Origin: Lentisphaera profundi
GTDB taxonomy: Bacteria; Verrucomicrobiota; Lentisphaeria; Lentisphaerales; Lentisphaeraceae
DNA: 64,000 bases
NCBI RefSeq assembly: GCF_028728065.1
Contig: NZ_CP117812.1
Location: forward strand, 2,294,001 to 2,358,000
Direction of reading: 5' to 3'
A program made the translations under genes and the position numbers. Positions within the stretch are counted from its first letter, which is position 1. Each line of letters begins with the position of its first letter. A model generated the notes under the pieces. That model was not told the origin of the DNA, searched no databases, and worked only from the letters and a program-made list of their open reading frames with translations. Of the stretch, positions 24,491 to 36,161 are shown piece by piece.

Positions 24491-25481
24491 ATGAAAAATG
24501 AAACCACAAATATTAATATAATAAGCTCAATGCGCGGGTTTGCTGCCATTGCAGTATGCCTTTATCATTTTGTGTGTACAACTACCGGATATATTGAAAA
24601 CGAACAACTGCTTAACTTCTTTGCGTGGGGAGCAAAAGGAGTTCAAATGTTTTTTATTATTTCTGGTGTAGTCATTCCACTATCAATGATTAAAGATAAC
24701 TATACGTACAACAATTTCTCTTATTTTATTAAAAAACGCTTTATAAGAATTGAGCCCCCATACATTGCTACCGTAATATTAGGAATTTTGTATCTAGTCT
24801 TACGAAATCATATTCCTGGGAGCACTCCCATTGACATGACTCCATCAGTCAGAGATACTTTGTTGCATATACCATATTTTATTCCTTGTTGTCGAAAATG
24901 CTAAATGGATTAATCCAGTATTCTGGACTCTTTCGATCGAATTTCAATATTACGTGATTTTGGCCTTGCTCTTTCCCTTATTACAGGGAAAGAACAAATT
25001 TACAAAACATTTGTTTTTTATTGGTTTGATCTCTTTAAGTTTATATCCAAGTCATACAAAATTTTATATCTATTGGTCTGCCTACTTTGCAATAGGTATT
25101 CTCTACACATGTAAAATTAAATCTCTAATATCAGCTAAAACTTTTATTGCTTATAATCTTTTTGCCGCTTTCGTCGTTATTAATCATCAAGGATTAAATG
25201 ATTATATCATTGGTATTTTTACACTATTTCTTATTCATCAATATCCTAATTTCAAAAATCACATTGGTGATTTTTTTGGCAAAATATCTTATTCTCTATA
25301 TTTAATTCACAGCATTATTGGAGCTGCGCTTATTAACTTCTTGTCTAAACGCTTCAATTTACCCTATCAAAAACTTCTCGTTATTAGCCTTGGGTTTATC
25401 ATAAGTATTGTTTTTGCGTATTTTTTCTGGAAACTCATTGAGCATCCCACTCACAAATTAGCTAAACGATTAAAGAAATAA
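24491..25481 (+). pseudogene. Acyltransferase 3 family membrane protein, frameshifted
   Basis: The first part (24491-24904) shows the acyltransferase-3 start MRGFAAIAVCLYHFV and a first membrane segment, then meets a stop. The second part continues in another frame. ENAKWINPVFWTLSIEFQYYVI, the family's NPxFWTLxxExQFY motif, can be read only if the frame changes near 24885-24895. The local sequence CCTTGTTGTCG would read PLFV if each T run had one more T, so two single-T losses explain it. The intact protein would be about 330 residues with ten membrane helices, probably O-acetylating the glycan. Genuine decay and homopolymer sequencing errors cannot be separated here. Confidence 0.85.
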
Positions 25482-25708
25482 ACAAATATTTTATTGATTG
25501 TTACCTCCGTCCTCTTTAAATAAAAATTGCGAATTTTACTTCAAAAGGTCTTCCTCTCTTTCCCTGCTTAAATTGATTCCTGATCTAACCAATCTTATCG
25601 GTCTGTACTTGCTTTCCGTATTTTCTGTGTCTTCCGTGGTTCAATCTCTCTTTCGACTGCAAACTTTAAACTGACGACTGCCTACTTTAAACTGATAACT
25701 TCCCCTCA
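25482..25708. other. Intergenic region with dispersed 'cttccgtggttc' words, no gene
   Basis: This 227-bp gap carries one set of the window's periodic T/G-rich words (TTTTCTGTGTCTTCCGTGGTTC, and AAACTTTAAACTGACGACTG repeated with small changes). No gene is apparent. Confidence 0.5.
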
Positions 25709-27187
25709 ATGCATAAAATACTACTCATTCTACTTATTGGCACGCTAGCTTATGCAGATACTCCTGTGGAGTATCTGCATAAGCAGCCTCCCCCCGTGTT
25801 TAAAAAAGAGCATGGACTCTACCCCCTATCACGCTGGGGTTGGTCTTTGGACTTTGATACTAATAAAGAATTTGCTGATAACTGGGGCTATGCTTTAGAG
25901 TTTGGAGCTTATGCCACTCCCCAGGCAGTACAAAAACTTGATGACCCCCATTCCTTTCAAAGTAAAGTATGTGCCTTAGTAGCATCCAATCCAGATAAAT
26001 ATAAATTGGCCGTCATTCCTGATCGTCCTTTAATAAAAATGGCTAAAGAAAATCGACTTCCTGAAGCTTATTGGCTCAAAGATAAAGATGGTAAGAAACT
26101 CGATGCCCCCACCTGGAAAACAAAAAATCCTGAAGCACCTCAAACGATTTTCAAAGAAGCCGCAAAAATCACTGCTGATTCACTCAAGCGTATACGCGAG
26201 ATCTGTTCCATTAGCATTGTACTTGATGGTGGAGAAAATGGACTAAGTGAATTTGGTCATACTTATCCCTACCTCAAAAAGGATCCCTCAATTTTTTCTG
26301 CTCCTAAGAAAGAACTTTGGGATTATTATTCAAAACATAAATATCGCACGACGATGCCTAATACCCTTGCTATACGCGAAGCTATACCCGATCGTAAAGT
26401 TCATGTTTGGTATCATTTTGGTGGCTTACCCTATTGGACTGATTATCGCTGGTCATGGAATTATGAGTACATGCGTAAACTAGCCGACATGCCGGGCCAA
26501 AGTCTCTATTATAAGCAATTCAATGATGGCTGGGAAGCGGATGATGACCTACTCACTTTTTTTCTATGCTCCTATGCTCAGGCAGCTGAATACGGCGATA
26601 AGCTCAGTTACAACTGGCTTTGTGCTGGTTGGAAAGAAAATCAATTTTCCGATATCGATCGCTACATGGGCTTTCTCAAATGTCTCTATACCGCAGGCCA
26701 AGTTGGTGGCGTGGCGGGTTATTTTTCTTATCCCAAAGACAAATTTAAAAATGACTTCGGAAGTAAGCCTCCGCATTGGCTCAAGCAAATGATTGCACTC
26801 TCCCGAGTTCACGCCTTCTTTAGTCATTTTGATGATTTCATCCTCAAGGGCGAACTACTCCCTGGTCCCAATACTCATGCCCTCGTAAAAAAACGTGTCG
26901 GCTTAGACTTACCCGCCTATGAATTCCCTACAGGTGATAAAAATATTCGAGTTCTGGTACGTAAAAATAAAGATGAGTGCTTAGTGACTGCTTGGGCCGC
27001 AGTAGGTGATTCCAAAGAAGTCGAAGTCTTTATTGATGAATTAGGAGAAATTAACCTTCTGGCTCGCCCTGAGGGCTCAGTCTATAAAATTTCCATCAAG
27101 GAACAAATCCGATTTGAGCCACCTGAACTCCATATTCAACTTCTCGATAAGAATGGTCTCATGCCAAGTCAAGGATTTAAGGAATAG
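25709..27187 (+). CDS. Secreted protein of unknown function, possible TIM-barrel glycoside hydrolase
   Basis: This 492-residue protein starts with a signal peptide, MHKILLILLIGTLAYA, with probable cleavage after AYA. The mature part is rich in aromatic residues and has segments like WGWSLDFDTN, GWEADDDLL, IVLDGGENGLSEFG and SYNWLCAGW, in the style of (beta/alpha)8 sugar-active enzymes. A small beta-type C-terminal domain (LVTAWAAVGDSKEVEVFID) is often attached to glycoside hydrolases. I cannot name a family. It might trim or degrade the polysaccharide made by its neighbours. A perfect hairpin lies in the coding sequence at the signal-peptide junction (25748-25784). No overlapping neighbours, so it may be its own transcript. 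Confidence 0.65.
   Translation: MHKILLILLIGTLAYADTPVEYLHKQPPPVFKKEHGLYPLSRWGWSLDFDTNKEFADNWGYALEFGAYATPQAVQKLDDPHSFQSKVCALVASNPDKYKLAVIPDRPLIKMAKENRLPEAYWLKDKDGKKLDAPTWKTKNPEAPQTIFKEAAKITADSLKRIREICSISIVLDGGENGLSEFGHTYPYLKKDPSIFSAPKKELWDYYSKHKYRTTMPNTLAIREAIPDRKVHVWYHFGGLPYWTDYRWSWNYEYMRKLADMPGQSLYYKQFNDGWEADDDLLTFFLCSYAQAAEYGDKLSYNWLCAGWKENQFSDIDRYMGFLKCLYTAGQVGGVAGYFSYPKDKFKNDFGSKPPHWLKQMIALSRVHAFFSHFDDFILKGELLPGPNTHALVKKRVGLDLPAYEFPTGDKNIRVLVRKNKDECLVTAWAAVGDSKEVEVFIDELGEINLLARPEGSVYKISIKEQIRFEPPELHIQLLDKNGLMPSQGFKE
25748..25784 (+). repeat. Perfect 17-bp inverted repeat with 3-nt loop inside a coding region
   Basis: GCTTATGCAGATACTCC at 25748-25764 is the exact reverse complement of GGAGTATCTGCATAAGC at 25768-25784, with loop TGT. 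It lies at codons 14-26 of the secreted-protein gene, right across the predicted signal-peptidase site. In mRNA it would form a very stable hairpin about 40 nt after the start codon. Confidence 0.95.
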
Positions 27188-27648
27188 TTTTCAGTTTTCA
27201 GTTAAAAAATTTGAACCACGAATTGAGCGAATGAAACAAATAAAAAACTTATTCACCACAGATTAAACAGATCAACACAGATTATTCTTTAATTTAAAAT
27301 TGAGAATTAAACATTTAAAATTTGAGCGAAGTGATCGATCCGTGTTTTTCTGTGTCTTCCGTTGTTTATTTCATTTTTACTGCAAACTGATGTCTGCCTA
27401 CTGTAAACTTTTTCATAACTGATGACTGCAAACTAATAAGCCTTTCCGTGTTTTTCAGTGCCTTCCGTGGTTCGTCTCATGTTCACTGTAAACTGACGAC
27501 TGATCACTTCAAAATTCCAAACCCTGTCTATCCGTGGTTCATTCACCTTTTATTGGAAACGTTTCAGCTCTTCATCTGTGATTAACATCTAAGCTTTTTC
27601 TATGATTCCACTTTTCTTTCAACTTGTAACTGTTTTAAAATATTTATT
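27188..27648. other. 461-bp intergenic region of dispersed repeats, no gene
   Basis: It contains several repeat families seen elsewhere. One is CCACGAATTGAGCGAATGAAAC, followed by CCACAGATTAAACAGATCAACACAGAT near 27255. Next comes the AT-rich TTAAAATTGAGAATTAAACATTTAAAATTTGAGCGAA near 27295. CGTGTTTTTCTGTGTCTTCCGTTGTTT and ACTGATGACTGCAAACT words follow. All are degenerate periodic strings. No open frame here looks coding. Confidence 0.6.
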
Positions 27649-36113: not shown

Positions 36114-36161
36114 TTGAAATAATTACCGATATCACTATAGTGATATCGGTAATTATTTCAA
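36114..36161. promoter_or_regulatory. Perfect 48-bp palindrome between divergent IS genes
   Basis: 24 bases from 36114 (TTGAAATAATTACCGATATC onwards) are exactly mirrored by 36138-36161, with no spacer at the centre (CACTA/TAGTG). It lies 20 bp upstream of the DUF6788 start and 29 bp upstream of the transposase start. It could be an operator for a dimeric regulator or a cruciform recognised during transposition. Confidence 0.9.

Follow-up and report, generated by a model that had tools for sequence, protein, structure and literature searches.

The hairpin and the gene that carries it

The window analysed here is a stretch of 64,000 nucleotides from Lentisphaera profundi (contig NZ_CP117812.1, positions 2,294,001 to 2,358,000). 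It contains a gene for a secreted protein with an inverted repeat among its early codons, and the features concerned are listed below by their positions in the window.

25709..27187, + strand: gene for a 492-aa secreted protein, with signal peptide MHKILLILLIGTLAYA and a mature protein beginning DTPVEYL...; predicted (beta/alpha) barrel and C-terminal beta-sandwich, glycoside-hydrolase-like
25744..25787, + strand: extended stem of the predicted fold, with three further pairs (GCT with AGC) beyond one bulged A at 25747
25748..25764, + strand: left arm of the hairpin, GCTTATGCAGATACTCC, codons 14-19 (A Y A D T P)
25765..25767, + strand: loop of the hairpin, TGT
25768..25784, + strand: right arm of the hairpin, GGAGTATCTGCATAAGC, from the last base of codon 20 to the first base of codon 26 (V E Y L H K Q)

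The repeat, GCTTATGCAGATACTCC-TGT-GGAGTATCTGCATAAGC at 25748-25784, occupies codons 14-26 of the 492-codon open reading frame (ORF) and all 17 of its 17 arm bases are complementary across a 3-nt loop, in agreement with the perfect 17-bp hairpin which a sequence-only reading of this DNA had reported. Its placement had also been read correctly, as the stem, counted from the first start-codon base, begins 39 nt downstream (40 nt had been claimed) and spans the predicted signal-peptidase site AYA/DTP. Folding with RNA and with DNA parameters recovers the hairpin in both cases, together with the three outer pairs. For a 201-nt region, the predicted fold has an energy of -57.2 kcal/mol (z = -5.1), and the strand folded as DNA reaches -20.3 kcal/mol (z = -8.5); the start codon is unpaired in the predicted fold and lies outside the stem. 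A search of the genome gave no second match to either arm with fewer than 2 mismatches, and the hairpin is therefore single-copy. Assignment to a known RNA family was rejected for want of an Rfam match, as was an intrinsic transcription terminator, since neither arm is followed by a T-run and the terminator scan did not call the hairpin.

Gap-free homology on both arms backs the ORF at 25709-27187 and its start at MHKILLILLIGTLAYA/DTP. The 492-aa protein has no Pfam match and no convincing match in NCBIfam. Its AlphaFold2 model is of middling confidence (mean pLDDT 69.6, pTM 0.72) and finds structural matches among TIM-barrel glycoside hydrolases, mostly alpha-amylase-like but including GH30 and others, with E-values of 3e-5 and worse and TM-scores of about 0.3-0.5. 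We take the product to be a secreted glycoside-hydrolase-like protein with a C-terminal beta-sandwich, a function which we infer from the model. GGE and Y-x-W motifs are strongly conserved in the family, whose members are about 32-48% identical to the window protein and scattered over Lentisphaerae (Lentisphaerota), Planctomycetota, Verrucomicrobia (Verrucomicrobiota), Armatimonadetes (Armatimonadota) and others. The gene is absent from both congeners searched, and the genomes searched yielded no relative above about 48% identity.

The gene adjoins a run of ORFs which, as named by reading of their sequences, are glycosyltransferase-, asparagine-synthase- and acyltransferase-like. An acyltransferase-like gene at 24491-25481 seems to be broken into two ORFs (24491-24904 and 24954-25481) that lie in different frames, which suggests a frameshift. 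Degenerate intergenic repeats of the types TCCGTGTTTTTCTGTGTCTTCCGTGGTT and AAACTGACGACTGCCTACT flank the hairpin gene (25621-25700 and 27339-27516) and occupy other intergenic places; they recur in the window, where one motif matches 18 times against an expected 3.5, and weakly in the rest of the genome.

Perfect stems within genes and their chance expectation

In-gene stems were counted in a sample of 2.4 Mb of the 5.46-Mb genome, taken in pieces, using genes of at least 150 aa (n = 1,611, 2.0 Mb) and perfect stems with loops of 0-12. The window gene was cut by a fragment end in this sample, and its 17-bp stem was added to the counts. Besides this stem, the 1,611 genes contained 14 perfect stems of 11 bp, 4 of 12 bp, 1 of 13 bp and none longer, where 60 synonymous shuffles of the 2.0 Mb of genes gave means of 5.7, 1.5, 0.4, 0.1 and 0.03 for stems of 11, 12, 13, 14 and 15 bp, respectively. 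Extrapolation by a factor of 4 per bp leads to an expectation of about 0.003 stems of at least 17 bp in 2 Mb and about 0.007 in a whole genome, which bears out the earlier claim that a perfect repeat of this size inside a gene is improbable by chance. Within real genes of the 2.4 Mb sampled, the 17-bp stem is the longest perfect one, and with the amino acids held fixed exactly one synonymous encoding reaches 17/17 pairs, with a probability of 6.5e-6 under host codon usage. Although such a stem is improbable by chance, about one outlier of this kind would be expected per ~100 genomes scanned.

Most other long perfect stems in the sample belong to different classes, namely terminators flanked by A- and T-tracts and a 24-bp palindrome present at three places. 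The suggestion that mini-palindromes elsewhere may be fold-back products does not hold for most of them, as these are mostly the A-tract/T-tract intergenic terminators and the thrice-recurring palindrome beside a transposase-like gene. The latter, at 36114-36161 in the window, is perfect and without a loop; its three copies in the sampled genome are identical, each lies near the start of an ORF of 137-138 aa, and the window copy sits between that ORF and transposase-like ORFs. It is probably part of a mobile element.

Considering loop length, the sampled genome has 17 perfect in-gene stems of at least 10 bp with 3-6-nt loops, against 9.1 in shuffles, and the same class gives 5 against 1.3 in a congener (a small sample, 0.33 Mb of genes). 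Loops of 7-40 nt show no excess in the sampled genome (64 against 73 in shuffles), and the congener also has a slight excess at loops of 7-12. Mirror-repeat controls showed little or no excess, with 18 against 14.5 in the sampled genome and 1 against 2.5 in the congener. The excess of short-loop stems, about twofold or more, is modest and could reflect template switching or selection for RNA hairpins. Perfect inverted repeats of bacteria are mostly intergenic, and their commonest spacer is 4 bp (PMC13155455).

Homologues at codons 14-26

An alignment-based scan of contigs detected 24 homologue loci, where an earlier single-protein scan had given none. Left out of the table of 20 relatives were L160, L161, L162, L170, L173 and L181 as apparent repeats (of L059, L002, L037, L003, L004 and L038, respectively), L179, L180 and L183, from which no N-terminal motif was recovered, and L182, which needed an offset of one residue. 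The alignment across codons 14-26 was anchored on the motif P-x-F-x-x-x-H-x-L.

All 20 distinct homologues align over codons 14-26 without a gap, and residues are conserved on both arms: A16 in 17/20, T18 in 14/20, P19 in 11/20, E21 in 12/20 and L23 in 18/20. The corresponding bases pair at only 0-9 of 17 positions (9/17 in L038 and L176), and perfect stems in the vicinity reach at most 4-8 bp. The closest resemblance is seen in ARAETP-AGYLQKQ (L178) and GLAETP-SGYLAKQ (L038). Y15, D17 and H24, which carry bases required by the palindrome, are found in none of the 20 relatives, columns 15 and 17 being variable. With a gap-free alignment, any change is confined to the repeat and involves no large insertion; the homologues, the nearest about 48% identical, are too distant to display clustered changes in one arm.

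These alignments bear directly on two proposals of the sequence-only reading. A thermosensor or pause element is not supported, because the homologues keep residues of both arms with codons which break the pairing, the very outcome that the sequence-only reading had named as its refutation, and the start codon lies outside the stem; the same grounds speak against an RNA thermometer or other 5' translational regulator. A fold-back by insertion of about 12 residues is refuted by the gap-free alignment, and a dispersed palindromic insertion element was rejected as the hairpin is single-copy and opens no gap relative to the 20 homologues. Rickettsia palindromic elements likewise place palindromic DNA within bacterial ORFs, but they are repeated insertions which lengthen the protein, whereas the hairpin described here is single-copy and adds no residues.

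The peptide itself is also unusual. Under host codon usage, 10.1 of 17 pairs are expected for the window peptide, whereas the homologue peptides tested give 4.0-8.0 and random gene stretches 4.3. If selection had acted on synonymous sites alone, the peptide should match its relatives in palindrome compatibility, and it exceeds them, which suggests an in-place rewriting of one arm with the other as template. The absence of Y15, D17 and H24 in relatives would favour such rewriting and is supportive rather than conclusive. As an illustration and not a reconstruction, a hypothetical ancestral peptide composed of residues common in the family, ALAETPVEYLQKQ, has possible encodings that form about 14-15 of 17 pairs (14 at most among sampled encodings, 15 by hand), so that a short correction would suffice.

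Origin of the hairpin

We consider it reasonably probable that the hairpin is a mutational product of quasipalindrome correction, and most likely a scar without function. An imperfect inverted repeat would have pre-existed by chance where the signal peptide joins the mature protein, and DNA polymerase may have briefly copied the other arm of the same strand in an intramolecular template switch, thereby perfecting the repeat; the switch and the choice of template arm, like the lack of function, are what we infer. Gene length would have been unchanged by the correction, and since constraint is weak from the signal-peptidase site to the conserved P-x-F-x-x-x-H motif, the rewritten codons may have been tolerated. 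The one-sided, in-place form of the fold-back proposed in the sequence-only reading is thus the best remaining explanation, while the event as such is not reconstructable from a nearest relative at about 48% identity.

Several processes could otherwise have led to the same sequence. A lineage-specific functional mRNA hairpin, which would pause the ribosome after about 9-10 codons during synthesis of the signal sequence or protect the mRNA, would be in keeping with the very stable predicted fold and with the position at the signal-peptide junction. We nevertheless regard it as unlikely, since the hairpin is conserved in none of the 20 homologues, has no Rfam match and only one genomic copy, leaves the start codon free in the predicted fold, and suits the palindrome in its amino acids too, beyond synonymous sites. 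A combined scenario, in which a hairpin newly arisen in this host by one-step template switching was recruited to time translation and export at the signal-peptide junction, appears decidedly unlikely. Ordinary point mutations might also have yielded a perfect stem by chance in a palindrome-prone stretch of protein (DTP/EY, A/L, K). The family peptide AETPxxYLxKQ already averages 6-8 pairs, two homologues reach 9/17, and many genomes and windows were scanned; against this stand the extrapolated expectation of about 0.003 such stems per 2 Mb of genes and the single synonymous solution, and we hold chance to be quite unlikely. The same peptide does count against the scar reading, as L178 and L038 already encode much of both arms; few base changes would be needed and point mutations could have contributed.

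The perfect dyad symmetry some 40-76 nt past the start codon could instead mark a DNA operator just within the gene, bound by a dimeric regulator. Most dimer operators are shorter than 37 bp, the length of this dyad; moreover, no second genomic site with fewer than 2 mismatches to the half-site was found, there is no convincing promoter nearby (1 found against 1.0 expected) and the dyad is missing in homologues, all of which makes an operator very improbable. Fold-back chimeras occur in some library types, and an assembly or long-read artefact of this kind was weighed as well; however, unlike an inserted artefact, the hairpin leaves the frame intact and the residues of both its arms match the homologues gap-free, and an artefact is in our view extremely improbable. 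By comparison, template switching may be said, with moderate confidence, to explain a stem that is at once perfect, length-preserving, single-copy, lineage-specific and located where the protein is under weak constraint.

In Escherichia coli, quasipalindrome correction through template switching is an established process, and the mutations in thyA and lacZ reporters (Ripley model, PMC7202029) resemble the present case in their perfected inverted repeat, short loop and location within a gene, although here the product alone is seen, without the ancestral sequence or strand. In coding genes of yeast, template switching homogenizes the arms with nonsynonymous change (PMC8604942), and the Saccharomyces cases are alike in their perfect coding inverted repeats, neighbouring amino-acid replacements being likely here as well; there, a tree of strains allowed the states before and after the event to be reconstructed, whereas the nearest homologue here is about 48% identical. 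Template switching is also able to create perfect RNA stems (PMC8794818). Perfect inverted repeats within protein-coding genes are likewise known from nematomorph mitochondria (PMC6649704), but those are many and reach lengths of up to 284 bp, in contrast to a single 37-bp case in a bacterium.

The hairpin is genuine but unremarkable, and most likely a mutational scar of a familiar kind. If the excess of short-loop stems holds in full genomes, it would offer a simple statistical sign of template switching. The locus offers a clean example of a strong hairpin within a bacterial gene that does not lengthen the protein, and it cautions against taking a perfect in-gene stem as a sign of regulation.
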